Position numbers and translations under genes: made by a program. Shown piece by piece: positions 26,488-48,467 of a stretch of 64,000 nt of DNA (its first letter is position 1; every line of letters begins with the position of its first letter). The notes under the pieces were generated by a model. It had not been told where the DNA came from. It did not search any database and saw only the letters and a list, made by a program, of their open reading frames with translations. This stretch comes from Pomacea canaliculata (taxonomy: Eukaryota > Mollusca > Gastropoda > Architaenioglossa > Ampullariidae): NCBI RefSeq assembly GCF_003073045.1, contig NC_037598.1:14918486-14982485 (forward strand). The letters are read 5' to 3'.

Positions 26488-26812
26488 CTACATGTCCCCG
26501 AAGATGCCCGCGAAAGTCTTCCTCAAGTTCTTCATCGTGTCCTCCTCGTCTTTGCTGGCCGTGCGAGCCGCCATGGCCGGGTGCATGGGTGGCCCGTGTG
26601 GGTGGGCGTTGGACATCTGCTGCTGTAGCTGCTGTTGATGTTGCTGTTGCTGGTTCGGAAGCTGCTGGCCACCATGACCCCCTGGATGACCGCCACCTCC
26701 TCCCCCACCGTGACCCATTGGGAGGGACACTGGAACCGCTCCTGGAAGCACCGGCCTCTCACTGCCCATGCCAGGATTCTGACCCTGTGCGGGTCGTGGG
26801 GAGGTCGCATTC
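26488..26812 (-). CDS. Syn: Synapsin exon 13: Gly/His/Gln linker and domain E
   Basis: Begins [11 protein letters not shown], passes through a Gly-rich run and a [12 protein letters not shown] stretch, and ends with the domain E signature [14 protein letters not shown] and TAG 26488-26490. Domain E mediates oligomerisation and vesicle clustering in other synapsins. Confidence 0.98.
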
Positions 26813-29800
26813 CTGCGCCACAAAAAGATTTACACGACAGAGCTTTGAGAGCCATGTTTACTTTTAAAAAATGTAAACAGTCACAATACTACTAAAATAA
26901 AACTTAGTAAGTTTGACAAAATTGTTCTTCCAATACTTACTTACGGCTGTGAAATATCGGCATGAGGAATTAGTGATATTTGTGTTAAGCTGTAGTTAAG
27001 ATTCTACAAAATGATTCTCAAAGTAAAAAGTCCATCTCATCCTGTATAAGGCTTGGAGAGTGTGGTCGCATCCCTGTTAGTCTTCTTCTTATTAACAGTA
27101 GAATGGGTTTAAATTAATGAAAGCAAATAACTGTTAAAAATAAAACCTTTTAAAATCCTATAAACCCGAATAAAGCTCAAAACATCAATGAGAGGATGTG
27201 GTTAGTTATGGACAGTTACATGAGATAATTCGCTGTTCAAATCGAGCGATCGTTTCTCACTTACATCATCTGTTGTCGCCCCTGTGGGGAGCCAACTTGA
27301 TTAGAACTTGCATAATGGTCATTTAATGCCTGGTGCATTATGGCCCCTGAGCTGGTGGCTTTACTGCCGACAAAAACAGGAAATATAAACAGTAAACATC
27401 ACTGGTCACCATAGAAGATGGAAGTGGAACATTCTGCAACAGGATTGTATTCATTGATCAACCAAACTGAATTCATGAATGAGTGAATGTTTTGACATGT
27501 TAATCCTGCTCACTTGGTAAACACCTTTTTAGTTTCCGGTTGAAACTATCTTCCTCTCTTCCCACCCAATCCCCTCCCTTTTTTTTTCATTTGGAGATTA
27601 TACAGATTATTATTTTCCTTTTCTAATCAGAATGTTTTTAATGCAAATGCTCAAACGCTTCTACAAAATGTAGAGTTTTACAGCTTACAGACAATGTATC
27701 TTACTATCTTATTTTTCCCCCTTCAAAAAAGTTTACAATAGTTTTGTCTAACTTGGAAAAATATCTGGTGTCATCCCATCCACCCACACCGCTCCGTTAC
27801 AATGATGATGCTGATGACATCTTTATTATCGTGCTTGCTTTTGGTATTAATATTGCTAATGTTTCATTTATTTCAACATGATCATAACAAACAGTTGGTG
27901 GCAAGAACGTTTCGTGATTTTATGGCAGCTATCGCTTTATTTTATCGTCTGCAACAGTGGATCCCGTCCGCCCTATAAAATGCACACAATGCCTCCCACG
28001 TTGGCAATGCCCTCAACTCAACCACCATTAACCCCTCGTCCCTGGCAACGCGTGCTCTGATTGGCTGCTAAATTATACAACGCATGATCTGATTGGGTAG
28101 ATGACACCAGCGTCTCCCCCTTTCCCTACTCACACATTTAGACCACAGACTACTTACGTCAGAGTGGTGACGGGCTTCAGGTATTGCTGCATCCGCGTGA
28201 GCACCAAGTCCGCGATCAGGCGCCTGTCCTCCTCCTGCGTCTCCCCCAGGAGGGTCATGGAGGAACCGTTGACCTGCAATACAGCCGCAGCCTCGTTTTG
28301 ATCCTTTCGCTGAATGTTTTTGCTCTCAATCATCTCTTCAGGAACACGAGTGAGTGCTTTAGTGCGTGAGTGGGTGCGTGCCTGGGGAACTCGTGTGCAA
28401 AGGTGTGTGGGGGGAGTGAGTAGGTGAGCACCTTAGTGACAGAGAGGAGTCGTCTGTCTACCTCGATGAGTGAGAGAGACATGGGTCGTCTGCTTATCTC
28501 AGTAAGTAAGATACAGGTTGTCTGCCTACCTCAATGATGTGTTCTCGTCCATCCTTGCCCTGTATGGCTTCAACTGCCACGATGTCAAGGCCGCCGAAGA
28601 GCTTGCTGCACTCGTCCACCCACGTTTTAAACCTGAAAATGGCGACGACAGTTACAACAACATCCTCTCGAAAGTACATAGGCCATTCAGGCTGTAGTTT
28701 TCTCTCCATTAAACTTGACAGTGACAGGTATAACCCTTTGACATATAAAGTTAACCAAGACTTACAATTTTTTTTTTTTAAAGAAAAATAATTCCTTTTT
28801 CCCCATTGCTATTTACCTCTCCTTTCTTCTCCATTTCTCAGGCACACACTTCTCTCTTCCCCTAGTTACCTCCCCCACTTAATTAAGTGCCCAGTCTTGC
28901 AGAACAGCTGATGAGTGATCGTAGAGTAGTAGAGGTAAACCATAAGTAAACCAGGCATCAAACAGTAGCACACATAGACACTAGACTACTCTGTCTCCCT
29001 TTTATAATTTATTCTCAAAAATAAAAACAAATAAATTCTGTACTAATGGTTAACAGACAAGCAAAGCTTGGACAGGTCGTTATTGTTTAGCTAATAAGCG
29101 ACTAACGATGAGCAGTTATTTAATATTTCTTTAACAGTTGTGTTAAAATCTGTGACAGTCTACATACGTCAGCATTGTCACGTGACCCTAATATTACTAC
29201 CTACCTTTCGTTCATGGCAATCTGTTCCAACATGGCCGATCCTGTGTTTGCCTTCCAATTGCCAGATATAGACTTCCGCCTTGACAACAGCAAACAAATT
29301 ATAAAGGAATCTCGTTTTCCTTCACTTTTTCATTAAACAAGCAGACAAGTGAAGAACTATGTTGTACAATTACAGAAGTAACAGTAAGTAAACAAACAGC
29401 ATCATTCCAGTATTTACTGATTCAAAGTGCGCACGAAGTGTTGGTCACTTTATACAGTTTTAACTTTCCCCAGCAACTTGGCTTCAACTTTCACGAAATG
29501 TGTGTCGCAAAAAACAATTTAATATTAAAATTATGTTTATTATTTATTTAAAATATATCCGAGTCAAAGCAGCCTCATGGTGTTTTACTGCACATTTATC
29601 TGCAACCTATGTCCGAACTTGAGAGACTGGTCAAACACGATAAACAAATTAAAAACCAAGAAAATATGTTGCAAGCAGCATGCGTCCTCTGTTCTTACAG
29701 GTTTTGAATGAGGTGCTGTTTATTTGTCAGTTTTTGAGATGTTTACTAACCTAGCCTAGCACAAATATTTCCATCAACTCTAAAATGGGAATGGTAGCAG

Positions 29801-32800
29801 ACAACATCAAGAACAATTAATAAAAGTAAACAATAATAGCAACATTTTATCAATATCAATAAAGTAAAAAGAGTGTGAGGAATTTGTGCATACAACAAAG
29901 GTCAACTGACACAAGCTACAAGATTAAACAGGAATTTGTAAATAAATGAATGAGAAAAAACTATATATATATATCAAAGTTACAGGAAGGCAGCAGAATA
30001 GATATATGTATACATATACATGAAGTGACTGCATGCAGACAACTCAAATACATCCATGAGCCGTATTCACAAAGTGAGGGTGAGTCATTTCCTGGGAGCA
30101 AACTTTGGAAATAGAAGAAACCTTTGTCACTGTAGTCAGGGTGCACTGTCCACACCGCGTGGATATTGCTTGTGTTATTTGCCCGAGAGGAGTTTTGCCA
30201 CTGATTTAAAACTACCCCGGGAGTAATGTAACACCCGCAGGGTCTGGACCTCCACTTTATAACTACTGAGATAAGCCGCTAACCCTTGGCTTACTCGCCA
30301 TGGCGGCTTATCTTCCTTTCATGCATACGGCCACATAGGTGTCCTGAACTTGGATTACAACAGAAAGAGGGGATGACAGGTATGCCACAGGGAAACATAA
30401 GAGAATTGAAGAGAACAGGGGGACACCACCAACTTCCTCTCCCACCCTAAAAAAAAAAAAACTGCCAAAATGCGGAACAGACAGATGGGAAATGAAGGAA
30501 TCAAAAGGAAACACTAAAGAGGCAGATGTAGTATTTCAAACACTGGCTTGTAAACTGAAGCCAAAAGCCCATGGTTCAGATCGCACCTTATATATGACTG
30601 GTCGGTCATGTTCTCCCCCTCTTTCCCTCTTATAGTTCTAAATCTTCTCTAGTGGGAAACACATTCCCGCCAAATTAACCAGCCAACCTCTATTTATTAA
30701 GCAAGAATTAACTGGACAGGTTAAGTGAGGAATTTGTACTAAGCTAAAATATTACTTAGTAATTATTTTCGTTCGTTTGCTAAAATCTCCATAGCATTAA
30801 TCAAACATTATTTCGGCGGAGAGAAGCTGGTTTCATGCTGTGAACGGCTGACATTTTCTTTGTGTGTTCGCTGGTGTGATTTCATTGACAATAGACTGTC
30901 GATCCCTTTGTCTATTCTTCTGTTTATTATATGTTTGTTTTCTTACGTTTTTTAATCCATGCTTTGCAGTTATGTGTTTAAACATGTGGCTAGTACGCGG
31001 GGCTTGATCTGTTGTGTGCAAGTCTGATGCGCCGTCTGTTTGTGTAAATTGATTGATTGTTTGTTTGTTTGTTCGTTCGTTCGTTTGTTTCGTTTTTGGT
31101 TTATGTCAGCTGCCAGAAGGAATTGAAAACTGCGTCCAACTGTCCTTCCACGGGAGTAGACGAGGAGCTGCCTACTAATGTAATCACGTGGTATGTAATC
31201 ACGTGGTATGACATCGCTACCATGACCCTCAGCACCTGAGCAAGGGAGGGACAAGGAATGGAGTAGGCGGGACAGTGACTGACGACACACGAGGTGAGAG
31301 GCGAGGCACACAGGTAACTCACATGAAGGCCTTGTAGGAGTTGCCTATCTTTTGGATGTGGATGTCGAGCTTGGTGTCTATGTAGGACTCTGTGGTGGAG
31401 TAGCCGCGAGTGACCGCCACCACCCCGGCAATGTCTTGAAAATCATGGGGCGACGCTACCCTAACCTGTCGAGGGCAGATAAGGTGAAGGTCATCAGAAG
31501 GCAAACAATTGGGAGGAGGAGAAGAGTTTTGCTAGAGTCCACACCAGGTCCTGAACTTCTTGTGATCTTACAAGCTCCAGCTCCTAGCAGTCAGGAAGGT
31601 TTGAGGCGAGAGACAAAAAGACTAGAATTTCGGTAGACTCCGGTACTTTTGAGGCCACGTGATAATCTGAGTCTAATATGTCAAAAACGAGTATGTAGTT
31701 TGTATGTAGTTACAGTGTAAAGTTCCCTATTTTCCCCCCAAAACTTCGTGGGGATAAACACTTTTCTTAATCGAGAGTAAGTCGTCAAACCATTGGCCAA
31801 GTTTAGAAAAGGTCAGAGGAAAACGAATGATGCAAGTCGAACGTTTGGACATTTGAACTTTTGTCAACATGCTAAGACAAGGTTGTCTGCCATGATATTT
31901 ATTAGGGTGGAACGTTGGAGCACTACCAGGGTTTGAAGCTTTGGCACTTTACCCGGTTAAAAACAGACCTAAGACTTCGGCTTCAGGGTTAAAGGTTAAT
32001 GTATGACAGTAGCCTTTCTTGGACAGCATTCATTACTAGTGTTAGGCAATGTGAAAAAACCACTCTTCCTTCACTAATCCTCCCTCTCCATTTAATATAT
32101 ATATAGACAGAGAGCTCTCCAAAGCAAGTGAAAAAGTCAAGGAGATGGACAGTGGGAATTTCTGAGATTGTGCACAGGCTTCAGGAGGGAAAGCTCCTCC
32201 CACGATCGTTTTTTTTTTTTGACATATCTCGGATGTTATTCACTGTCTGTAGTTAGTGACTAAGCTATTTGTAATTAGATAGTTTTTCTCTGATTAGCGA
32301 GTTTCTGTATTGTATGCCTGTACATCTCCTGCACAACCTCTCACTAGCGGAAGTGCCACAACACGCATGCGCTGACCAACAAACAATCGATAAACCGGAA
32401 GCCATACGATGGTTAAGGACGGACCAATCACAAGCACAGCTGGTGGTCACACCAGGGGTCATGGACGACGGGTCAAAAGCTGCTTGAGGGAAGGAGTTGG
32501 GGGTAGATTATGGGGGACTCCATTTGCGAGTGATTTCCGTGTGCACGAGCTCGGTTGTTGGAACAAAATGCGGTCAGGCCGGGTGGAATGAAAGTCTTGT
32601 TGACCTCGCCGTGTACAAGTCTCGACAACAGCCTTGTACCAAACCTCGGACAGAAGAGCAAACACTGGCGCCTGTGGGGAGACAATCGATCAAGGCGGGG
32701 GAACAGCACAAGCGTCCAGCAGCGACAAAATGTTAGACAAGGGGGCGTAACTACGGAGGGGGTGTTTCTGGAAAGATTACAGTAAACAGTGCTGCCATCT

Positions 32801-35800
32801 AGGATATTGAGAACACGACTTGGTCAGTATTTTTAAATCTCCTTTTTACTATTCTTTTCTCTCATATATATATATAAGTTGTTCATTTTTCGTCTGTCTG
32901 ACTTTCCATCATTCCTCTCTCTTATCTCTTATTCATGTCTGTTTACTTTCTCGTTCTTCACACCCATATACGCAAGTATATACACCCACAGGGGTCAAGA
33001 CCTCACGAAGATAGACATACTTTTTGGAAGTCAAGATGGCCGATGTTAGTAAGCTAGTTTGTTTGTTTGTTTGTTTGTTTGTTTTTTGTTTGTTTTTTTG
33101 TTTTTTTTTTTTAAATATCAGGATGTTCACACAGGGGCGGATAAACACCTGTTTTTATTCTGACTACGCCCTTCGTTGGTGGTTATCTTTCCTGACTCGG
33201 GTCTTTGTGTTTTCCTCCCAGCCTTACTTGAAACTTTCCTTCATTATGTGACAGTGTTCATTTGTGTGTGCGCGCGCGCTCTCTATTTTTATAAATGTTC
33301 TTCCTAATTTCTTCCCGTTTCCTTCCCGTGCACATAGTTTTGCGATTATCGAAGGATTTGGAAGGACTGCCTTCAACATTAACTGCTTCGTTGCTTCTTA
33401 TCCTTTCTCGGGGCTACGTGCTTAACTGGCGTGAAACCAAATTTACATTCTTCTTTAAATATGTTGTTAAAGTCTGACATTGCCTGTCACAGGATGGTCA
33501 AAAAGTGGAGAGAGAACAAGTTGAGAGAAAGAGTTGGATGGAGAGAGAGGGTAGCTGCGACAATGTGATAATGAGCTGGCGGTAATAAAAAATTTGAGTT
33601 GAAAGTCTTAATACAGATACAGTCGAAGTTGAATTAATAATTAGTAAAACAAATTCTCAAAAATTTCTTCTCGTGCGGGTGATTTGTTGGGAACAGATAA
33701 GACAGGAAAACAGAACACTATACCACACACAGAACCCAAAAATAATATCAACAGCCAAACTCTGATTTCCGGTGGTGGTGGTGTGTGTCATCTACACCTA
33801 AACTGCCAGAACGAGTGCGAACTGATAACAGACTACAAAACTTGAGATTAATGGCCTGGCCAAAGCTAAATGTCTCTAGGACAGGACTACAGAGATACAA
33901 CATGGCATGCAAGAATGTGAACAGTGTAAACAAACATCGTAAACATTGGACAGTGCATCGTCAAACACCGTTAGGAATATGTGTGAAGCAGGTGAACATT
34001 TAAATATCTAGGAGCACAGTGCGAGAGACGAGCAGTGCAGTGAGTCCGGGGAGGAGGCCATTGGATACAAAAGGGAGATCACTCACAAGTAGGCCTTGTA
34101 GTTGCCCCCTATTTTCTGTATGTGCAGATCATATTTTCCGTCCACAAAAGCTTCGGTAGTGGCGTACGTGTTACACACGGCCACCACGCTGGCGATGTCT
34201 TGAAAGCCGTGAGCTGATTCTATCCTCACCTGTCACACGCCACGAGACAGTCACGTGGGGCTCGATCCCCACTTCCGGTGGAGTCAGTCAGCAAAATTAT
34301 GAATATTGGGGTTTGTTTAACATTTGAGCGCTGGTTCATGAATGTATTTGAAACATGGCGATTCAGTATTTGGTGGCACGCCTCTTAGAAAAAGAATCAT
34401 CACTTCATCTCTTTTCTTCATCCCTTCTTATCTTCCACCCCTCCGACCCTTTGTTTGTATATCTTCCTGCCTGCATGTCTGTTTTTCTGTCACTGCTGTT
34501 GCGTGTGATTGTGGTATGATTGTCGATGTATTCTGCCACTCTTAGCTATTAATTACATGTCCTAATTGCTACCCTCTTCTCATCTTATTGTCATTCGTAC
34601 TAATCAGCAAGTCTGACGGAGGGAAGGGCAGGGAGGGAAGGTGTACCCGAGTCCGAGGCTGTGGAGGAGGCCTGAGACTTGTATACAAAGTAATTTCCAT
34701 GAGACGAAAAACTGAAGTTTATACATTTCTCGACGATCAGAATGTTTGCTTCGTAATGAAAGCTTAAGAAAGATTTGGGAAACATTCAAGAAACTGAGTA
34801 TTATCGTGCAATTGTTTATCAACTGTCAGTAACTATTCTAGGGCGACATCTGCTGAGAGTGTAAATGTCTAACTTCGCATCGCGAACAAAACAAAACAAA
34901 AAAAAAAAAACAAACAAACAAAACTTTCAGCGACTGGCTCAAGAGCAACATCTTCATGGAGGGATTTACACCTTCTACTTCTCTTCTGTAGATGTCCACG
35001 AAATATGCTAGGACATTATTTTTGTGACACAGACTGAAGTCTTACTTCCCATCGTTCATCGGGCTTGTTGCCTTATAAGCGAGCCCCCGTCCTACATCCT
35101 TGCTTCTTCCTGCTGCTGATAGGTTTACTAGCACAGCCTGGCTCTCAACAGCAACATTGATTTGATTCTCGAGGCGTTTCTAATACATTCCATCTCCACC
35201 AAGGCCTCGGTAATGAGATAAGAGCATGCGACATCACAGGGATGCTGAGCACTGCACTTCAGGTCAAAGGTGAAGGACGTGTTTGAGGGCAACGCTAATG
35301 CATATTATGTCCACGTTGAAACACATTATGGCAGCCGCCTCGATGAAATACATCTTGTTTGCGATGAGCTAAATAAAAAAAATCCCCCTCCATAAAAAAA
35401 CAAAGATCCCTAAACAAAATAAATAAATAAAAATAAAAAGCCAAGCAAATAAAACCCCGAATGTATTGCGTGTAGGTGCAACTGTGAAGTGCACTGGTTC
35501 AAGAAAATATCAACATATTTCATTCTTAAATTTAGGGTTGTTTTTTTTTGCAATTATTCTCACCTGTAATACACTTCAACATACAGTATTGTCAGAGAGA
35601 AGAAAACGAATTAACAGAATAGTGGAGAACTGGTGACCAGAAAAGGCGAAAGACAGAAGTCTCTTCCTCTCTCTCACACAAACACACACACTTGTGAATA
35701 TAATTTTAGCGAGAAGAGAGAAAACATTTGCAGGATATAGTAAATATGAAAGCAGTACCAATCTAAGTGTTAAGAGAGAAGACAACCATCTTACCTTGCC

Positions 35801-38800
35801 TAGTCCTTGGTGCGCATGTCCAATTTTCACGACGACCGGAAATTTGGGCGTGATGAGCTGCCGATCAAAACAAAAACAACAAAAACAAAATTTAGAAAAT
35901 CTTCACAGTTACGTTGGAACTGGAATATGTTTTTATGTAAGAAGTAAGGCGACGAATAGAAGAACAGTTTTAGTTACAACGAAATGAAACGAACGAATAG
36001 AGTCTACTAGGTTGTAATTAAACATTTGCTTAATGAACAATGTTCAGCCTGGCACTCGATGTCTTCTGATAGTTCCAATGTTCAGAGTGTGGAACAGTAA
36101 TAAATGAAGTTATATATATAAATGATTTATCTTCCTCTCGGATCCTCCTTGATTTAAAAGCTTTATTTCCCTCGTATTATTCTACCACGGTAACAAATCT
36201 CTAAGTCAACAAGCTAAAGCATCATATGCCACACAATATGAACAAAGCCCTACAATGATGTTCACATCTAGTTTAATTTCTAACATTATGGTTTTAGCAA
36301 ACCTGTTGCATTCAGTATTTACAAATGATTAAGTTTTATCCCACCTACAGCCCACTGGTCACTAATAATAACCTTTTGTCATGCATTTAATCATTGATTC
36401 AATAAATTAATCGAACAGTCACTCGTTCTTTCACGCCTTCATAAATTCGATTGAAGTATAAATTCTTCGTAAACATTATCTAATTAATCCGAACACTTAA
36501 CACACATAAAAAAGCCAACACAATAAAGAGGCTTGAAGAATATTTATGATTGAGTCTAGGATATATGCTGCTAGACATGCACATCACAGGAAAACATTGG
36601 AGATGAAGGCTTTATCAAGATTTCTTTATTACACTACTATTTTTTGAAAGGACTGTCATTTATTTATCAGCTTCATGCAAAAGAAAAAAAAAAAAAAAAA
36701 CAACAACAACGAAAAGGGAAAATGTCATTTTAAAAAACTACAGCGAGGTTAAAATAAAAAAATTCGAAGAAAATGGTTTAAAAGTTTATACATTAACATG
36801 TCTGAAAGTCTAGGAAAAATTCTTTAGTTATAATGGCTAATTGTCTTGTTTGATTGACAGGCTTGTAAGATATGTTGTATTTCTCAATGTTAGTCCGGGG
36901 AATAGATTACACCAGAAGTAAACCTTGCATTCAATGTACTCTCCCTAAAGTTATGAGACAGGACCATGATTTCTATCTCCTCATGTGTAGCAGGCACACG
37001 GCCACTTTATCTGACAGAACTAGTCCACTCATTCAGAGAATAAATTACAAAATAAAAATTGAGATAAATATCACAACAACAATCTGTTATCACAACTGTG
37101 AATTACTTTACCATAAAGTATTAATATAATTTTATTTAAGATAGTTTTGTCACAAAACAACAGTTAGACACAATTACTACAACACAATTATTATCCGGAA
37201 AGCAATTACTCATAATAATAATTGTTAAAGAGCAATCACTTTACAACATATAGTTAGCAGACAGCAGCGATCTTAAAATATACCAGAAAGCAAGGATTCT
37301 ACAACACAATAATTATTAGAAAGCAAGGACTCTACAACATAATAATTATCAGAAAGCGAGGGTTCTACAATAATAAATACATGTATTAGAAAGTACAGAC
37401 TCCACAACACAGGGATAAAGAACAACTGATCAGCAGCAGCAGTTTTTGTGATACAGTACTGACATGACTGTGATATTATAACTAGCTTTTATTACATTTA
37501 CATTATGCTCAAACACTTTCAGTTCACAAAGCATGTGACACATCGCTGACGACACAACAAGCGCCACTGACTTGGCACAGTGAACCACCCATACCGCCTC
37601 TACCTCTACCACAGACGGCAAAAAGCGAGAACCTCGTTACCCGAGCTACACCGCAGACTGAAACACTTAGTCACTGAAGCAAAGAGTCATTCAGACTTCG
37701 ATCAGTTCATTACCACTCCGGACGCATTGCAGGTCACGTGACACAGGTCACCATCTCGACAAATGAAATGCTAAAGACTTACAGATCACTACTTCAAGGC
37801 AATGGAATTAGTTCATGATACCAGGATGTCTTACAAAATCAGGCTGACTACAAATGTAGTTAATATACAGCTTTGAGGCAAGAGTAACGTTTGTATTCAA
37901 CAGTTATTTAAATAATATACTTTCATACATTAATACATAGCAAATCCAATTTCCAAAGATAATTGAAGTGTCTCGAAACCTTAAATTTATGTACAAAGCG
38001 CACGCAGGTGCTCACTCACTCCCTCATGCTCCATCACGAGTTACGACCCTTCGTCAGACTATACCTGCCTGCTAATGACGTCACGGCTAGCGAGACAGTC
38101 ACGTGATGGTGTCACGTGATGGTTGCCTCAGCGCAGGTAAGCACATGACCTCACGACTCATCATCTTTGCACTGATAAATGTACAAAATCAAGCCTACAT
38201 TACATAGACAAAAAGTCACGTGTCCTCAGGTCTCGTGCTCTCAGCCTGTGGGTGACTGAAGACTTGAAGTTCACAGACCCTAGTGATGTGACTAGCTTGT
38301 CACGAATGAGCTGTGATCGGATACAATTCTCACTTTTTGTGACCCTGAAGGCAGCAGCCAGAGGCAGAGCTTCCAGCTCGTGATAATTAATTTATGTGTT
38401 ACCGTAGCAACAGTCAACGTTTGTGACATCACGAGGTCTGATATCAAGATATCTCTATACAAAAACACAGAGAATTTAAAGCGTGTACATTGTGGAGAGA
38501 TCAGATTTATCCGCAAAAAATTGGAAATTAGTATCTTCTGACAAACGAAACCTATTCAGATATTTGACAAATGTTTTACACTCCGGGTGGCTTTAACCCG
38601 TATATCTACTCGATCATTTCTTCGGAGACTGGGTTCCATTACAGTCCTGAGATCATCCAACATGACATGCGCATTATAACCTGACAGTAGATAAGCCACT
38701 CTCTACTTCTATTCCAGTTCTTCCTCAATACATTTTAGCATATCTTCAGAGAGATATTCTCAGTGTGTGCCAGAAGCTTCGGGAAACTCATTTTGAATGG

Positions 38801-39143: not shown

Positions 39144-42100
39144 TTTCAGCGTGTATTTGCACAATTTTCGGTTAGCAACATCCTACAGGCTGCTCAATAT
39201 TATGTATGACTGTTTGGCTGCCCACCAACTATCACAGACCTGACAATAAATGCTGTCAGTGCCAGGAAACCTGGTGCATCCTGCTTGCCTGCCTTCAGTC
39301 AGTAACAAAGAGGTTGTGATGGGGGGAGGAAGTGTGGAGGTTGATGGGAAGAAGTGAGGAGGGGAAAAAAAACTCACATAAGCAACTACAATGATCAGCG
39401 ACTGTCTATTCACCGCAGGCGTGCAGCAAACAACAGAAATCTCAACCCGAGTATAGGTGGCGCTACACATGGCAAGACACTTGCTTAATTTTTTTTTTTT
39501 TTAAGGGTCTGGGACTGGTCGAAAACAGCGGAGTCATGGCAGCCTCGATCTGGACTGAAATCTTATAAGACAAACCCCGAGCGGGTGAGGAACAAGTTCT
39601 TGTGTGGTGCAGGGCTGCTCCGCGAAGCGTCCAGGCGGGTAGATCGATACCCGAGAGACCTGGACGCAACCATATATTTTATTAATAATAAAGGGAGGAA
39701 AATGGCCTGGCCAGGCGCTTTGTGGGTCTGAATGGAGGCTGTCCGCTTGGCCAGGCCGTCTAGACATGGACCCGCTGTTCCGACGAGAACCAGTGTTAGA
39801 TGGTCTGTACACGCAGTAATGCTGGATTAAAATTGGACTCCAACTCACCCACATGTTACTCACCATTTCCTTGTGGTTGGGGTAGTAGGCCTGCTCGATC
39901 AGGGGGAAAGCCTCCTTACCCAGCCGCTTCTGGATCTGAATCAGCTGGGCAAACTGTGGGATTCAATGGCAAGACAGTTTGTACTTGTTCTAGCTTGTGA
40001 GCAATAAAACATTCAACCTGATTTACATACGTTTACTGGTTGACATTCTGGGAAAGGTTCAATGTGAAGGTTAAAGGTTAAGATGATGTAATGGTTTCTA
40101 TAGTCTACTGGCCCTAGAGGCAATGAGAAGAAGGTGTTTACTGTGTCTAAGCATTGAAAGTCGGAGGGCAGCAACTGCCTTCTGTCACCTTTGCATTCTC
40201 AATTTTGCTGAGCGGCTGTTGTATGGGCACAGACAGGAAGTTTTCTAGCCACAGGCCCAGCAGGTTTCGAAGCAGCCGCATTCTATTTCGAAAAGCGCAC
40301 TAACCCTTTAGCTAACTGCTCCACTTTAGCATCCAGCTAGGATGGTTGGTTGTTTAGCGGGAAAGTGCTTCTCCTCCAGATTTGATTTCGCATTATGAGA
40401 AGAGGGCAGGGTACCCGTATACAACCTCAGAAGGCCGGCCATGCGAATAAATGTCACATACAGAGCAACCCGAGGATGAATATGTTGGTTCTTTACGCGT
40501 AGGACATCGACTCATCCTGCCTGACAGGATGTACAGCCCTCCAGGATTCGTTGACAGTTTCAGTCGTTGCTGTCAAAAGCTTTCTCAAAATCCGCGAACT
40601 GACTTTGTTAGGAGGGGAAGGAAGGGAGGGCAGCCTGACCCTTGCTAACATCATGGCAGTCATCACACTACATCAGGAGTAAGCCATTCCCGCCATGTCA
40701 TTCAAGCCCATCCCAACTCGAGCAGCGCGTGCATGAGTGTGGCATGCCATCTTGTGATGACGTCACCGGATGTTTGGATCGATGTGCCAGTCTCTTTTTC
40801 TTGTAGTCTTAAATATGTGTCAGCGAATCAATGATGTGGTTGCACAAATACAACCTGAGCTATAAATATTAAATTCTTCGGGGTGTATGGGTGTGTGGAG
40901 TGCCGGTGGATGGTTGTCGTCATAAACAAGGGGATGTTTCCACGTCCCTGGTTCTGGTTCAGTGTCGGTGAGTGCAGTGCACCCCACTACACCTCAGGGT
41001 TACTAGGGGTGGCACTCATTATCAGTTTGATACTTCGAGACAGCTCATTATCAGCATCCCGATGTGGGTGAACAACCTCACAAAACTCCACAACGCTTGT
41101 TAAATCGAATAAAAACAAGATCATTGGTCTCAATAATTAGGGTTTGGATTAGAGTTTGTATTTGAATGAGCTAGGGTTAGGGCCAGTGTTATTATGTCTT
41201 GCAGTTATTTTCAGGTGTTGGAGTAGAGGTTGTGTCTTCCATAATATGTTCTCATCACCACGGTGGTGGTGGCTGGGGGAGGAGTCAATGTACAAGGGAA
41301 TTTTTGCCATATTGTACGATAACAAGAAAACAAATGAAGCTTTCTTGGACTAATGGCTTTCAAACTGTAATTGATTTGTTCCATTGATTTTTCCTGGAAG
41401 CTTCCAGGCAGCGGGATAGGGGTGAGCGCAACCAAAGCCGTAGACACGATGAACCACTTTCAGTTCACTTCTCGTGTGTGCCTTCGTCTTGAAACCCCGT
41501 CAAACATTGACTTGACATTATTTCAGCATGCTCCTCATTCTTCCACACGTGGATTTAATGTTTATTAGGCCCAGCAGTGTAAATGGAATGTTTCCTTTTC
41601 TTTTCCCTCTCCTTTCCTGTTTCCTCCTCTCACTCCCATCTTTCCTGACAAAATATGGCTGCCGCGCGAGCTAAAAATACTGTTTACAGGGCGCTCAGAT
41701 CATGGAGGCAGGAGTGAAGTGAGGGCTAAGATGTGGCAAAGAGAAAACACGACACCATGAATAATACAACCAAGGGCAAACCTACCACCCAGGGCTTGTC
41801 CAGGAAGTTATAGGTGGCGCTGAGGGCGTTGACGGCAGGTATCCCGCCATATTGGAAACCCAGCAGCAGGTTGCGCCAGTCTTCGTGCGCGTCCCGCACG
41901 TGCTGTCTGATCAACAAGAAGTCGGGTCTGAAGGATCTGCACACAAAATAAACACGAGAAGCAAACTGAAAAAAATGACAACTTTTTCACCCGCCAGCAG
42001 CCAGAGCTTGACTGTCAGAAGGAGACTTCTTCCAGGAGATCCCTATGATCGCTGCTTCCTTTTTAGAAAAAGTGGCTTTAATTCTAAGTAACAGTATTTT

Positions 42101-45100
42101 TTCATTAGAACAAGAAGACCTGAAAGCTTGTTATCTGAAGTTAAAGGATATTTCAAAGAGAATTCTGCTTAAAGTTCTTGTTCAAATATATTTTAGATGA
42201 TACACGGGTGTAGCGTGCGCGTGCAAACACTCACACGAACACATTCCATTTAACAGCAGGTGGTTGTGTAAATGAATGATGAGCATAGGAGAACTGCTTA
42301 GTGAGATGTAGTTGCCCATTAGAGCATCAGCTTTATTACAAGTTCTTTCGTTACCTAGGAAACATTTTTTCCTCTTTAAGCCTCAATGTGATCTGGAAAA
42401 TTTGTAATACTCATGGAGAGAGAAGAACAGGATGTGATCAAAAGCAACAAGACGGACAAGGATCCAGGCAGACAAAAATATAGATAAACAGACAAAATGA
42501 TAGACTAGTAAAGACAGAAATATTAAACTAGACACAGATAGACACCTACCGAACTACTTTCGTTCCATTCCTGTTCACCTGGATGTCCACCATTGTCCCG
42601 CTGTCTGAATATGCCGCCAGGTTGATCTCAGAGAACTCCGCCTGTCCAACAGGTGAGAAACAAAACACCTTTACCTATCTTTCCACGATTGCAAAGGGGG
42701 TAATAACTGCAAAATAAAATAATGAAATTGTACACTCTGGGAATCAAACAGTTGTCTTATTATTGGTTTTGTACAAAATCTAATCACGGTATTTTAAAAA
42801 TGCAATTATGACAAGACAAAGACTTGTTGATATCAGCCGACGAGTCACAAGTCAGGGAGTAGGGTATAATGACTTCGAGCGATTTTTGCTCAGACAAGGG
42901 AAGAAATCACAGATGTTGACCTCTGAACCGCTTGCAGACGAATTTTCTAGAACGAGGCCAAAGCACAAATTCACTTCCGGTTTAACTCTCAACATCAAGA
43001 AGAGCTCTCGTGTTGTCGAAGGTATAAAAGCTCAAACTTTACGGTCTGTCGTGTTCTCAGTTTATTAGCTAGTGAGAAGTGGAGGTCGAGGATTTTTGCC
43101 TAAACAGAAATAAATAAAAATTAACTGAGCAAGAAATATATTGCATGCTTTTTTGACTTCAAGAATTTTATCACGGTTCGGAACATAAAACTGCAAAATC
43201 TTTCGCGAGACCTGACAGCCTACAAATTTGCGAAAGGCTAAGAGTTGATTTCGGGAAAAGGGCAGAGAGATAAGTCCACACATAAAAGTTCGCCAGGAAA
43301 AAAAAAAAAAGATTTTCTTGTCACTAATTTGTTCCTTACCTCCCTTTAGATTTATTTCTTACTGAAGGGGATAAAAAAAGACGAAAATGAAACCAGAAAA
43401 TAATTATGGTTATTTTTAGTCGTCAACCGAGATAAAATTCAAACATTTGGGATCTGTTATTCAATTATAGGCTGTGTTATCACAAGATTGTGTTATAGAG
43501 GGGACTGTTTTATATTTGGAAAATTCACCTAATCTGAATTGGTAAATGGCGACGGGCTGGGTTAAGAGAGATTACATGCTTGGATATTTTGCATCGTTGG
43601 CTGTGTAAATACTTTCACAGTGGTTATTGTTAAACAATAAAGCAAATCGAGAATTTAAGGTAAGAACAGCTTCTCCTTTAATGTTAAATTAAATTTAAAT
43701 GTTAAATTTAATGTTATAATTAGTTGGTTTTTTTTAATTTGTTTGAAGTAATAAACTGAGCCCAACATGTCGCCACTATTTTGAGCACCTTGTGCCCTTG
43801 GAGGCTGTCACGTGGTGAGAACAAAAGAAAAAATGTCTTTACACTCCAAGGCTTCAGCAGGCTGTTTAACGGTCACTGCCTTTATAAGCTTTCCGCAAGT
43901 TTTTTTTTTCGATGATGCTGCGCGCTGCACCCACTCGGCATGGATGGCCTCGTTCTGGGAAATACACATCAGACTGTGGAGCGAACTGTTCTGGAAACTT
44001 TGTTAGTGGTGGCTGCTTGCATGGTTTGGACAGGAAGACTAAAAATTGTACTTAATATGTGTTATGGAGTAAACAAATTGATTCATTATTTTGTTATATG
44101 GTCACGTGATGAAATTCTGCTTTTATTGCGTTAATCTGAAATCTTGAATTGTGACAAAACATCACAAGGTGGAATGAGCAGCTCTGTAAATCGACTGTCC
44201 TTTCAAGCCCACCATATGCTAATTCTCCTTTTTTTATTATCTGTGTAAAATGCTGCCAGGCCAGGAAAGGCCGTAAGTGCTTTTTAAATTTATAAAATGG
44301 TTTAACCTTAAATTTTTGTCGTTTGCCATTACACTTTGTCATGTGTTATTCTAATGTATGCCGTCCTCAGTACACCCATGTGTCGATTCTCTTGAGCCAG
44401 AAATATCTTTACCTCTTGTTTGCATTGATTAAGCACACTCCTTGTTCCTTTGTTCCTTTACTACTTTTCTTGTCAGAGTAAGAAATAGTCTAATGCTCAC
44501 CAGAACTGCTTCCTATATATATACACTCTATGTAACACAACTTGCTGAAGCCACCACGTGTCCATCTTAATGTCACTCGTAATGTCAAATAAACTAATAC
44601 GGAACATGACACAGACAGACGCCTTCGTCCTCAGTTTTTACATCAAAGCAGGGCAAGAATTAAAGCTGTTCAAAAAAAAAACTGCAACGTAGACAGTTGA
44701 TGAAAAATACAAAAATACAGTTGCAATGCATTCAATATCAACACAGTATCGCGTTTCGAGCTTTAATGTGCTGAGTGGACAGTTTCCAGAAAAGCCAACA
44801 ACGGTCTGTCAATTAATTTCGAATCAGATTTCTTTAAAGAGCAGCCTGAACGGTTTGTGTGTGGGTTTTTTTTTTTAGAAATCAGTAGATATAGGCGATA
44901 TAAAACTAACCTGTAAATGTCAGCCTCCAAAACCCATCTGTTACTTAATTCTCCGCTACGATTCCCACCTGCGATCAACAAGCGCCGCTAACAGTGTACT
45001 ACGTCACGTTGGTGCACCATTCACATTATTGCCTGCAGTCAACACCACACAGTGTACTACGTCACGTTGGTACACCACTCACAATATTGGCAACAATCAA

Positions 45101-46648
45101 CACCAATCAGAGAGAGAGAATGAGCGACAGTTCGGGTTATTCGAATGTTGACAGTCTGCATTTCTCGTGGTTTTGAAAAACTGCTGCTTTAGCACGAGAA
45201 ATGCAGACTTTCAACATTCGAATAACCCGAACTGTCGCTGCCATTGGTGTTGACTGCTGGCAATGTTGTGACGTAGTACACTGTTAGCGGCGCTCGTTGA
45301 TCGCAGGTGCGAATCACGTACTTTGGTAACAGATAATTAATTAACGGATCAGTTTTGGAAGCTAAAATTTAAAGGTTAGGTTTATATCGCCTATATCCAC
45401 CAATATCCCCCCCCCCCCCCCCTGCCCCCCCCCCCCCTAAAAAAAAAAAAAAAAAAAAACCAAAAAAAAACGCAACCATTCAGCTTGGTCTTTAAGAACC
45501 TCGAAGCCTTAGTACTACCAAACAGTTTCATTCCAGTTTTTTTTTAATCAAGGATTTTTTCGAGACAAGCCACCTGTTTAAAATCGGCTTTCTTACAGAG
45601 CGCCTAGAAGATAAAACCCAAACTTGTGACATCATCCACACCATGCAGGGGTCTAGTATCATGCGTTCACAGAAGAGGAGGACAGAGAAGGAAGGAACGA
45701 GACAAGGAGACTGTCATGATGCCTCCACTATTGATCACAACCTACGTCGATGGTTTGTAAGCACCCGCTCAGTCTGGGCTCAAGTCGCGATTATTGTGCA
45801 CACCCATCACCTGATGATGTCTGCTTGTTTCCACACCAGAAATCATTTAGTTGTGCGGAAGAAATTTGATAAGCGAGCAAGAAAAACAAAAAAAAGAGTT
45901 CAACTGTACTTCATCTCCACGCGCACTTTGGAACTAAGTTTTGATGACGCGTTGAGGACAGGTTCGACCCATTGCGATGTTTTTCAGTTGGATGGTCGTT
46001 AGGAGGAGACTGATGCAAGTTAACATTCCGTTGTTAAGGTGCATGCTCTCCAGATAAATTCTTTCTTCAAGTATTGAAAAATAAGCCTTGGCTTGGCCAT
46101 GCCTGCTCTCTATTTGCTAAGTATTCCCTTTTCCCTAATCTCTTTTTCTTTCTTCCTCTCTCTCTCTCTCACCCACACACACATATATATCATATATCGT
46201 GGTCATTATGTGCCCCTGCTTACCTGTTCCACTCGTACATCCCAATCACCAAAGATCTTCTTCCCTTGAAGTACTTGGACCTGAAACATCGGAAATGAAC
46301 TAAGTGACCCTTTTATGTATGCTGGTTATCCGACTCCTCTGCCTGTGTGTGTGCGTGTGTGTGTGTGTCCTGTAGTTGTACCAGTCTCCTGGCAGTTTTT
46401 TCGTGAATAGTGTTTTTTCTCGTGTTGCCTCAACATTAAGCAGTCTAAACAAGGTCTGTAAGCACCGCGCTGGGTTTTAATTGCTCAAGAAGACCATCAG
46501 CTTGCATTAGCACCTCGGTTGCTGTTCATAAAACTGTCTTTGAACGAGATTGAGTACCGCCTTCCGACAGCATTACTACAAAGACTTAAAAAAAAAGCTA
46601 GCTTTGTTAGTGTGCGTCCGGTCTTGTCTTTTAGATGTCTAAGGTGTT

Positions 46649-47495: not shown

Positions 47496-48467
47496 AAAAA
47501 AAAAAGAAAGAAAAAAAAAAAGAAAGAAAGAAACTACTGACATACGCCAGAAAGAGTCAAAGAAAGATAGGGTATCTTTAGAGAACACAGGGGCCAGACT
47601 ACTCACCAGTCCGTGTGCTGGTCGTCGATGATGAGAGTATCTTGCAGCGGTCCTTGTTGTAGGCCGGCTTGCCTGACCCCGATGACCCCGCCGAGAAGAT
47701 GCGCTGGCCGATGGCTGTGGCCGGGGTGGTGCGGGAGGGTGAGCTGGGGGCGCTGGGGGAAGGACCTTTCTTGCCCACCGGCGGCGGTGGCTGCCTCTCG
47801 TCCTCAAGCTCCCCCTGTCATCGATCATCGACACTTTACTATCATCAAGCTTCCCCTCAACTTCATTATCACTCAATATTTCATGGCAAGGCCTTGTCAC
47901 AGAGTATGAGCACAATAATATTTCCTCAACCTCAATATGCTTGTTGTATTATTTAAATATTGTCTTGCTTCCCGATCTTATTACTTCTTTGACTTCTTCT
48001 TTTTTTCTTTTTCTTCTTCTTCTTCTTTTTTTTCTTCTTCTTTTCTTCTTCTGGTGCTGCTGCTGGCTATGGTATGGTGTACTGTCTTGAATGTCTTTGC
48101 GAAGTTTTCTAGTTTTATTTCCCCTTTAACTTATCCATGCTGCCTATATAAAAAAAAACAATGCGTACAAAATAATATAAGCAAGTAACAAGTAAAGGAT
48201 ATAAACAAGAACAAATAAACAGTGTCAAACAACTGACTGATCGGTAAGGTTAAATGTTCCCTTGCCTGAGTCTTCAAAATATATTCAGGTCATTTCTGTT
48301 TATTTTAATGTAAAGAGTTTGGTTATTTATTTATTTATTTATTTATTTATTATTTATTTATTATTTATTTGTTTGCTTATTTTTACCTGTAGATCGCCAG
48401 AGGAGAATCGGCGCCTGAGATAACTCATTCCAGATGAGAAATTGTCTTTGAAGCTGGAGAACGACAT
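26488..48467 (-). CDS. Syn: Synapsin, complete gene with mutually exclusive exons
   Basis: Synapsin coats synaptic vesicles, clusters them in the reserve pool and releases them on phosphorylation. Coding exons in transcript order: 48467-48387, 47814-47607, 46280-46224, 42641-42550, 41936-41786, 39953-39864, 35857-35795, then 34229-34087 or 31465-31323, then 29279-29205, 28632-28530, 28273-28158, 27363-27265, 26812-26488. The total is about 534 aa. Domain A carries the RRRFSS kinase site (Ser22). The N-terminal half of domain C has IIDDQHTDW and [12 protein letters not shown]; the ATP-binding half has [22 protein letters not shown] and [13 protein letters not shown] Gly/His/Gln-rich linker precedes the domain E ending [14 protein letters not shown]. 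All junctions are GT-AG and phases agree, apart from single missing bases near 47640 and 46262. A 3' splice site at 48490 implies an upstream noncoding exon. Confidence 0.97.
27265..27363 (-). CDS. Syn: Synapsin exon 12: linker
   Basis: 99 bp of low-conservation linker ([17 protein letters not shown] and GSPQGRQQM). Acceptor GTCGGCAG, donor TGAT|GTAAGT; identified from phase continuity between exons 11 and 13. Confidence 0.9.
28158..28273 (-). CDS. Syn: Synapsin exon 11: end of domain C
   Basis: 116 bp encoding [20 protein letters not shown] to QYLKPVTTL; acceptor ATTGCAG, donor TGAC|GTAAGT. Confidence 0.97.
28530..28632 (-). CDS. Syn: Synapsin exon 10
   Basis: 103 bp encoding [16 protein letters not shown] and [16 protein letters not shown]; acceptor ATTTTCAG, donor GAG|GTAGGC. 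Confidence 0.97.
29205..29279 (-). CDS. Syn: Synapsin exon 9
   Basis: 75 bp; its first G completes the Leu/Met codon from exon 8a or 8b, then [16 protein letters not shown] to MNE. Donor AAAG|GTAGGT. Confidence 0.96.
30175..30310 (-). repeat. tRNA-derived SINE-like element in synapsin intron
   Basis: The minus strand reads GGCGAGTAAGCC, TTAGCGGCTTATCTC and a B-box-like GGTCCAGACCC at tRNA-like spacing. Confidence 0.35.
30535..30700 (+). repeat. tRNA-derived SINE-like element in synapsin intron
   Basis: CTGGCTTGTAAACTG (A-box-like) is followed by ATGGTTCAGATCGC (B-box-like) and a body containing GGGAAACACATTCCCGCC. Confidence 0.35.
31323..31465 (-). CDS. Syn: Synapsin exon 8b, alternative copy 2
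   Basis: 143 bp, acceptor GGACAG-like (CTGACAG context GACAG), donor TCAT|GTGAGT. It encodes [14 protein letters not shown] through [12 protein letters not shown] and supplies AT of a Met codon, as in other synapsins. Same length and phase as exon 8a, 2.6 kb further downstream. Confidence 0.95.
33057..33112. repeat. GTTT repeat
   Basis: About eight GTTT units followed by longer T runs, in the intron between exons 8a and 8b. A related GTTT/GTTC patch lies at 31057-31092 in the next intron. Confidence 0.9.
34087..34229 (-). CDS. Syn: Synapsin exon 8a, alternative copy 1
   Basis: 143 bp, acceptor GTGACAG, donor ACTT|GTGAGT. It encodes [14 protein letters not shown] through [12 protein letters not shown] and supplies TT of a Leu codon completed by exon 9. 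It has 29 of 47 residues in common with exon 8b and is closer to the vertebrate sequence in TYAT and NYKAY. No stop or frame defect. Confidence 0.95.
35155..35262 (-). pseudogene. Syn: Decayed third copy of synapsin exon 8 (possible)
   Basis: On the minus strand one frame reads SAQHP, then DVA, then [11 protein letters not shown]. This aligns with SAH, DIA and [12 protein letters not shown] of exon 8a, with an internal deletion of about five codons. Nucleotide similarity is clearest at TCCACCAAGGCCTCGGTA against TCCACAAAAGCTTCGGTA. The 3' part, including the IQKIG block and the donor, is not recognisable, so it cannot substitute for the intact copies. Confidence 0.45.
35795..35857 (-). CDS. 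Syn: Synapsin exon 7: Gly-rich ATP loop
   Basis: Twenty-one intact codons, phase 0 at both ends, encoding [16 protein letters not shown]. This lies immediately before the duplicated exon. Confidence 0.97.
37187..37405. repeat. Minisatellite of about 40 bp in synapsin intron 6
   Basis: Imperfect copies of a unit containing AGAAAGCAAGGACTCTACAA and ATAATAATTAT, roughly five copies. Confidence 0.75.
38076..38119. promoter_or_regulatory. CRE plus duplicated TCACGTGA cluster in synapsin intron 6
   Basis: TGACGTCA (38076-38083) is followed by TCACGTGA at 38099-38106 and 38112-38119, the latter two in a tandem GTCACGTGATGGT duplication. These are consensus sites for CREB/ATF and for USF/MITF-type bHLH-zip factors. 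An intronic enhancer is possible; activity is inference. Confidence 0.35.
39088..39147. repeat. TTTA microsatellite
   Basis: About 15 TTTA units with one interruption, in synapsin intron 6. Confidence 0.95.
39864..39953 (-). CDS. Syn: Synapsin exon 6
   Basis: Thirty intact codons from [12 protein letters not shown] to [11 protein letters not shown]; donor ATG|GTGAGT. Confidence 0.97.
40205..40335 (-). repeat. tRNA-derived SINE-like element in synapsin intron 5
   Basis: The minus strand reads GGAGCAGTTAGC, GGGTTAGTGCG and GCTTCGAAACC (B-box-like), then CTGGGCCTGTGGCTAGAAAA, which resembles the body of the element near 54.7 kb. Confidence 0.4.
41786..41936 (-). CDS. Syn: Synapsin exon 5
   Basis: Intact; [20 protein letters not shown] to YNFLDKPWV, one of the most conserved synapsin blocks. 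Acceptor TGTGCAG, donor GTG|GTAGGT. Confidence 0.97.
42550..42641 (-). CDS. Syn: Synapsin exon 4
   Basis: Intact; encodes [11 protein letters not shown] through [10 protein letters not shown], matching the synapsin strand that precedes SFRPDF. Donor TTCG|GTAGGT. Confidence 0.95.
44820..45500. mobile_element. Foldback (MITE-like) element in synapsin intron 3
   Basis: Two arms of about 250-330 bp are near-perfect reverse complements. GTTCGGGTTATTCGAATGTT on the left faces AACATTCGAATAACCCGAAC on the right, and ATATAGGCGATATAAA faces TTTATATCGCCTATAT. The loop near 45160-45205 is short. The left arm has an internal direct duplication of about 58 bp (CAGTGTACTACGTCACGTTG at two places) that the right arm has only once. 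The right arm carries poly-C and poly-A runs. No transposase is present. Confidence 0.8.
46224..46280 (-). CDS. Syn: Synapsin exon 3
   Basis: Acceptor GTTTCAG, donor CAG|GTAAGC. It encodes SKYFKG then [12 protein letters not shown]; the two halves differ in frame by one base near 46262 (GGGAAG where GGGAAAG would be in frame). Length 57 bp against 58 expected from the flanking phases. Confidence 0.9.
46649..47535. repeat. 880-bp AAAG polypurine tract in synapsin intron 2
   Basis: An almost pure A/G tract of GAAA and AAAG units with occasional C, starting about 70 bp after the exon 2 donor on the transcribed strand, where it reads as UUUC/CUUU. The long Phe/Ser/Leu open frames across it are low-complexity artefacts. 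Confidence 0.97.
47607..47814 (-). CDS. Syn: Synapsin exon 2: domain B-like linker and start of domain C
   Basis: Begins with [12 protein letters not shown] and a Ser/Pro-rich segment, continues through [10 protein letters not shown], and ends with IIDDQHTDW split at the donor TG|GTGAGT. One base is missing near 47640, between KDRCK and TLIIDD. Confidence 0.92.
47982..48053. repeat. CTT-rich tract in synapsin intron 1
   Basis: Interrupted TTC/CTT runs; AAG-rich in the transcript. Confidence 0.85.
48319..48371. repeat. TTTA microsatellite next to the synapsin exon 1 donor
   Basis: About 13 TTTA units ending roughly 15 bp inside intron 1 from the exon 1 splice donor. Confidence 0.9.

Follow-up and report, generated by a model that had tools for sequence, protein, structure and literature searches.

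Introduction

Homologous alternative exons that enter the message one at a time are known from OGDH (exons 4a/4b), U2AF1 (exons Ab/3), Mhc and oyster AOX. The mechanisms that enforce such a choice include frame mismatch coupled to nonsense-mediated decay, incompatibility of U2 and U12 splice sites, RNA structure, and proximity of the 5' splice site to the branch point (PMC7969005). In molluscan synapsins, the Aplysia isoforms 11.1, 2.1, 7.1 and 8.2 are distinguished by two inserts and a single possible substitution (PMC2825198). Syn8.2 of Octopus vulgaris carries VSNLW and domain C substitutions common to ApSyn8.2, HpSyn, LpSyn and mammals, and was isolated from ovary and testis, Syn-long and Syn-short being isolated from brain also (PMC6817820). 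The present analysis concerns the synapsin gene on the minus strand of a stretch of 64,000 nucleotides of the snail Pomacea canaliculata (NC_037598.1, positions 14,918,486 to 14,982,485; the whole stretch is called the window), and in particular two copies of its exon 7, designated 7a and 7b, which lie between a common upstream exon 6 and a common downstream exon 8. As judged from sequence comparison, the two copies are very probably mutually exclusive exons, and an ancient pair, within the only synapsin gene of this snail.

Results

Two copies of exon 7

Both copies were 143 bp long, were preceded by AG, began with GTGAGG or GTTAGG, were followed by GTGAGT, and ran from phase 0 to phase 2. 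Translated from phase 0, each was open over 47 codons plus 2 bases. Copies 7a and 7b were identical at 29 of 47 residues and at 91 of 143 bases (52/143 differing), and only 21 of 47 third codon positions matched. The NG86 method gave a dN of 0.30 and an undefined dS, which was read as saturation. An earlier sequence-only reading had described two intact copies, with the same length, AG/GTGAGT bounds and residue match, between the same two flanking exons; its positions for the copies, on the minus strand, were correct to the base, and the remaining features were reproduced (Table 1). Its estimate of about 18 differing residues in 47 held within the exon and rose to 19 in 48 once exon 8 completed the split codon, to TTG (Leu) when following 7a and to ATG (Met) when following 7b.

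The likeness of 7a and 7b (29/47) was far above chance, since the next-best ungapped match to 7a, over any other 47-residue stretch of the window in six frames, had 11 residues. Against a mammalian synapsin C domain, the two copies matched with E = 4e-17 and 5e-15; set within their flanking exons, they matched solved mammalian synapsins end to end (E = 1.6e-42 and 4.5e-40). The proposed location in the ATP-grasp C domain was borne out by the matches to solved synapsins and by a family domain search. Exons 7a and 7b were adjacent, homologous, equal in length and in phase, and each had its own splice sites, which are features of mutually exclusive tandem exons.

Reading frame and choice of exon

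Exon 6 ended in phase 0 and exon 8 required phase 2. The combinations 6+7a+8 and 6+7b+8 each stayed open and in frame, with Leu or Met, respectively, as the junction residue. With both copies skipped (6+8), reading was out of frame, open to the end of exon 8, and stopped at the second codon of exon 9 (read by eye). With both copies included (6+7a+7b), a TAG was met at the fourth codon, the split junction codon counted, and with the reverse order (7b+7a) a stop at the second codon. Because inclusion of both copies or of neither shifts the frame, only one copy at a time can give a full-length synapsin. This frame logic is firm. The proposition of the sequence-only reading that a transcript must use exactly one copy was supported by the frame arithmetic, and also by a pair of proteins of Littorina and by separate groups of A and B exons, both described below. 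Faulty combinations, with both copies or neither, would be removed by nonsense-mediated decay.

The intron between the copies measured 2621 bp, as compared with the less than about 50 nt of steric exclusion, and all introns were GT-AG, as opposed to a U2/U12 combination. With an intervening intron of that length, exclusion through proximity of the 5' splice site to the branch point is unlikely. Pairing between introns was scored against 20 first-order shuffles per intron pair. Intron 6 formed stems scoring 56.0 and 44.0 with the 7a-7b intron (shuffle maximum 42.5) and a stem of 40.5 with the last intron (shuffle maximum 38.5); the best stem between the 7a-7b intron and the last intron, 34.0, was under its shuffle maximum of 38.0. 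All three stems above the shuffle maxima used the same T-rich stretch of intron 6, and were rejected as docking-selector candidates for low complexity.

The same results bear on a looser arrangement, in which 7a and 7b are competing cassette exons and not strictly exclusive, messages with both copies or neither being abundant and used as unproductive transcripts that lower expression. With introns of 1565, 2621 and 2043 bp, all of them GT-AG, neither a steric block nor a U2/U12 clash forbids the joining of 7a to 7b, and only low-complexity stems emerged from the docking-selector scan. However, this arrangement overlaps with exclusive use, from which it differs only in the amount of nonproductive RNA, and the Littorina proteins show a clean replacement. 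It is given a low but appreciable probability.

The choice itself may depend on the acceptors. The acceptor tract of 7a was poor in pyrimidines (10/20), as compared with 7b (15/20) and with exons 6, 8 and 9 (13/20 each). One TGCATG motif lay downstream of 7a, 176 bases from its end (33911), and two more lay in the last intron (30325 and 30037). Other motifs near the exons were in small excess; given 9 motifs and 4 regions, these motif counts, TGCATG included, are weak. The weak acceptor of 7a would compete with the stronger acceptor of 7b under tissue-specific splicing factors; our guess is that 7b is the default and that 7a requires an activator.

Position in the protein

Exon 7 encoded a strand and helix that come after the Gly-rich loop, Tyr301, the ATP-site hinge (at 306/308, with a role toward adenine), and two strands toward the multifunctional loop. 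It spanned residues 280 to 327, in a numbering that fits the ATP-site docking study PMC2922380 and the Tyr301 site of synapsin in PMC6817820. Lys269, Glu305, Pro306 and Ile308 were named in the former, with the hinge at 306/308 in the docked-inhibitor model (PMC2922380). The multifunctional loop comprises residues 330-343 (PMC9678998). For mammalian synapsin I, it was reported that dimers and tetramers, as well as the clustering of vesicles, are favoured by ATP binding, and that mutation of the Ca2+ site lowers vesicle density (PMC9678998).

Tyr301, Glu305 and Asp313 were identical in 7a and 7b. The 19 changed positions were 282, 283, 285, 287, 293, 298, 299, 300, 302, 306, 307, 308, 310, 312, 314, 321, 322, 326 and 327. 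The two proteins would therefore differ in the strand and helix of the lid, in the ATP-site hinge and in the residues that follow (306-308, 310, 312). Because of the positions of these changes, the two forms may differ in ATP handling, in ATP- and Ca2+-dependent oligomerisation, and in vesicle clustering. The structure model of the type A protein of Littorina had a mean pLDDT of 56, with 66-86 per block of ten over exon 7, and best matched rat synapsin II; its predicted secondary structure agreed with the assignment of exon 7 given above. A comparison of the A and B structure models was set aside, as the B model was too poor and the difference between the models may reflect the alignment.

Exon types in other molluscs

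Exons were typed by two residues, at the equivalents of bovine 293 and 302: Ser and Ala defined type A (as in 7a), and Gly and Ser type B (as in 7b). In Littorina saxatilis, proteins P0005 and P0006 had 535 residues each and differed at 24 positions, all of them at 247-293 within the exon-7 stretch (246-293). Over the exon, P0006 was of type A and 83% identical to Pomacea 7a, and P0005 was of type B and 62% identical to 7b. Each came from a contig of 70,200,420 bases; P0006 shared the locus name V1264_020329 with P0007, and P0005 was named synapsin-like. Isoforms differing only in exon 7 thus exist in the Littorina annotation, and this pair, in another snail, is the strongest indication that both copies are used. 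Type B of Littorina was without the usual Lys311, Tyr312 and Gln317.

A view in which 7b has fallen silent, as an old duplicate that Pomacea does not splice in any more while 7a alone is used, is suggested by the deposited Pomacea canaliculata synapsin (P0003). This protein, the closest among the matches listed in a search of 5.8 billion sequences, carried 7a (48/48 residues identical to the exon of the window). Type B also changed faster, the Pomacea-Littorina identities given above (62% for B, 83% for A) comparing with 88-100% for exons 3-6 and 8-10. However, 7b kept its open frame, its exact length and both splice sites, had a better pyrimidine tract than 7a, and retained Tyr301, Glu305 and Asp313. 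Type B exons were furthermore carried by listed proteins of Littorina (P0005), Aplysia (isoform 2.1), Biomphalaria, Haliotis, Lottia and oyster. A silent 7b is accordingly improbable. Counts of nearest proteins per exon (189 matches to A, of which 120 were listed, mostly vertebrates, and 6 to B) were set aside, as they depend on exact shared words and are not comparable.

The Tegillarca granosa (ark clam) model P0233 contained exon 6, 28 residues of a first copy, and then a full B exon, and looks like the work of a gene predictor that shortened the leading copy of a tandem pair so as to stay in frame. It points to a tandem pair with one B member. The first copy had both A-diagnostic residues, yet was identical to each Pomacea copy at 14 of 28 residues; its mean identity was 13.4/28 to the A rows and 12.9/28 to the B rows of the tree described below. 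It was labelled type A by the two diagnostic residues, and the label was dropped after the tree placed it outside both groups.

The first half of exon 7 was unusually divergent in this copy and in Helix and Bradybaena (land snails; P0033 and P0035) and Mytilus (P0028); these may belong to a third type of exon or to an A lineage that evolves fast. The neogastropod Babylonia areolata had seemingly two synapsin genes on two contigs (P0004 and P0008), one with type B and one with type A. Either a gene duplication divided the exons between the copies, or each gene retains both. One model of Acipenser (P0123) contained the vertebrate exon twice, in identical copies, and was set aside as a probable assembly or model artefact.

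Age of the pair

Typing covered 29 molluscan proteins (28 among the 120 listed of 1769 matches, plus P0233), of which 16 were A, 10 were B and 3 were undecided. The undecided proteins were from Pecten (P0016, on the B side of the tree) and Mytilus (P0028, on the A side with a long branch), and P0017. The tree was built with 36 of 37 prepared exon-7 rows and 48 columns (16 A, 12 B and 8 selected others); P0017 and P0007 were left out, their exon 7 being identical to those of P0016 and P0006, respectively, and the 28-residue Tegillarca fragment was added in a second tree only.

One branch, with support 96/95, set all 12 B rows apart from the rest, and another, with support 89/90, did so for all 16 A rows, the latter value being below the star of the tool. 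With the Tegillarca fragment added, support was 93/95 for B and 86/90 for A. The least number of changes on the tree was 1 per label, versus shuffled means of 12.1 and 10.4. Both groups contained gastropods and bivalves, and A contained a chiton and cephalopods also. Annelid and nemertean sequences adjoined B in the first tree (87/91), and the root was not firm with 48 columns. Both exon types were conserved across species; as neighbours within one species they were seen only in the DNA of Pomacea and, partially, in model P0233 of Tegillarca. Because the A and B groups each hold gastropods and bivalves, a single duplication before the split of these classes is the simplest reading. The pair described by the sequence-only reading stood, and it extends beyond Pomacea; it looks molluscan and ancient.

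Separate tandem duplications in several molluscs would also yield such pairs. The 48 columns, the unsure root and annelid placement, and the first Tegillarca copy, which did not group with A and would suit either a duplication of its own or a further exon type, leave some place for them. However, independent origins predict that A groups with B within a species, and the observed grouping was of Pomacea A with Littorina A, and of both B copies with other B. Repeated origin is thus very improbable.

Points that weigh against an ancient exclusive pair

Several observations weigh against 7a and 7b being an ancient pair in exclusive use. The sole Pomacea protein among the matches listed uses 7a. 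A clean A and B pair within one species was found only in Pomacea (as DNA) and Littorina (as proteins), and the Littorina proteins are annotated models. The remaining molluscs showed one type each, possibly through the one representative per 90% cluster kept by the database, or through loss. The two Babylonia proteins seem to come from separate genes. The tree had 48 columns, and A and B were assigned by motif before it was built; Mytilus was placed in A despite mixed diagnostic residues, and the first Tegillarca copy lay outside the A and B groups on a long branch beside acorn worm. The type B structure model had low confidence over most of exon 7 (mean pLDDT 52, below 50 up to residue 275), and among the three introns there was no pairing above shuffles beyond one simple repeat. 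The evolutionary claim rests on one matched Littorina pair and on a short but consistent tree.

Gene and locus

The minus strand of the window held one synapsin gene, from an A-domain exon (N-terminal, with RRRFSSGD) near 48416 to an E-domain exon (C-terminal) near 26538; the motifs of both domains were also seen in P0003-P0013. Protein P0003 was over the cut-off for PF02078 (124.9 bits) and PF02750 (341.1 bits), the N-terminal and ATP-binding domains of synapsin, as were both Littorina forms. The assembly (440,159,624 bases, 24 contigs) was searched in six frames with 94 residues of exons 6-7a-8. All of the 4 best candidates, the number scored, were matches; they were 7a, 7b, exon 8 and exon 6 of one gene, and no second synapsin locus or third copy of exon 7 was found assembly-wide at the sensitivity of this search. 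Because all four matches lie in one gene, the synapsin gene is single copy at that sensitivity. The coordinates are presented in Table 1.

Table 1. Exons and introns of the C-domain region of the Pomacea canaliculata synapsin gene (positions in the window)
Feature	Position	Strand	Remarks
Exon 3	42550..42641	-	Boundaries read by eye
Exon 4	41786..41936	-	C domain; boundaries read by eye
Exon 5	39849..39953	-	Two tandem GTGAGT donors; start boundary read by eye
Exon 6	35795..35857	-	21 residues; common upstream partner; phase 0 end
Intron 6	34230..35794	-	1565 bp
Exon 7a (type A)	34087..34229	-	47 residues + TT; used in deposited Pomacea synapsin
Intron between 7a and 7b	31466..34086	-	2621 bp; GT-AG
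Exon 7b (type B)	31323..31465	-	47 residues + AT
Intron after 7b	29280..31322	-	2043 bp
Exon 8	29205..29279	-	Common downstream partner; completes split codon + 24 residues
Exon 9	28530..28632	-	Boundaries read by eye
Exon 10	28158..28273	-	C-domain end; boundaries read by eye

Two adjacent exons upstream (about 47607-47800 and 46224-46280, minus strand) had one frame change each relative to Littorina and other listed synapsins. Protein P0003 read through these changes with a garbled stretch of 15 residues, and an odd stretch of 12 residues in the upstream exon of the window was also present in P0003. The frame changes are probably single-base errors of the assembly. Errors of this sort in the synapsin gene might invite the suspicion that the duplicate exon is itself an allelic or chimeric artefact of assembly, but this is scarcely credible with copies that differ at 52/143 bases, are separated by 2.6 kb and are each matched by a counterpart of their own in other species.

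The two donors of exon 5 were 15 bases apart, so that its end is at 39864 or 39849; with the longer exon, VSNMW would be added, the first two codons of which are the upstream GTGAGT donor itself. An insert of 5 residues (VSNLW, VSNMW or VSTFW) was present in listed synapsins of Littorina, Haliotis, Gigantopelta, Potamilus, Mya, Octopus, Lineus and Capitella, and the alternative donor looks ancient. Inserts of the VSNLW type were found together with both exon-7 types. A TIMP gene nested in the synapsin gene was reported for other phyla (PMC2825198); neither scanning the window for motifs nor searching the genome for the family detected one, the controls of the family search being also silent.

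Discussion

The reason for ATP binding by synapsin is not fully settled, and two natural versions of the pocket are a ready-made comparison. The A and B versions have been kept apart for probably more than 500 million years. Both are represented among Aplysia, Helix and oysters. A swap of one exon in the same protein would directly test the role of the pocket, through the affinity for ATP, the dependence on Ca2+, the formation of tetramers and the clustering of vesicles. Tentatively, and as a possibility that we would not favour over its opposite, molluscs have retained, from their common ancestor or an earlier one, an exon choice that exchanges the lid and hinge of the ATP site and acts as a splicing switch. 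Depending on the tissue or the type of neuron, it would set ATP- and Ca2+-dependent oligomerisation and the clustering of vesicles, one gene doing the work of the three vertebrate genes. Vertebrates have three synapsin genes that differ in their regulation by ATP, and the pair would be the equivalent within a single gene. As both forms appear to be made in Aplysia, presynaptic plasticity there may involve the switch.

Comparison with known systems

Mutually exclusive exons in synapsin were not described among the matches listed in a full-text search of the open-licence literature. The sequence-only reading had known of no synapsin with this arrangement, and none was found among those matches; its products, however, had probably been cloned already from Aplysia and octopus, whose isoforms are said to differ through substitutions in the central part or in domain C. 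Aplysia 2.1 (P0010) had a type B exon, like Pomacea 7b, and Helix synapsin HpSyn (P0033) a type A exon; Aplysia 8.2 would have type A. Octopus sinensis P0041 carried VSNLW together with a type A exon. The 8.2 forms would thus carry exon A, and the other isoforms, octopus Syn-long included, exon B. The main text of PMC6817820, which presents octopus Syn8.2, uses the term 'exon' 0 times. By 2002 both forms had probably been cloned, as Aplysia 8.2 versus 2.1, and not recognised as the products of mutually exclusive exons. The 'substitutions' described among the isoforms of molluscs would be accounted for by the exon pair as well.

Vertebrate synapsins I, II and III have the same C domain, and the stretch of exon 7 can be aligned with them over its full length. 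Their diversity is attributed to three genes and to C-terminal splicing (PMC2825198), and not to replacement of an exon in the ATP domain. Unlike the OGDH pair, synapsin 7a and 7b are separated by an intron of 2.6 kb, and a device based on a short intron and a distant branch point is unlikely. Exclusive tandem exons are known as a kind; to our knowledge, neither synapsin as their host gene nor this domain is known as such. With respect to the other tandem exclusive exons, the pair described here is set apart by its host gene, synapsin.

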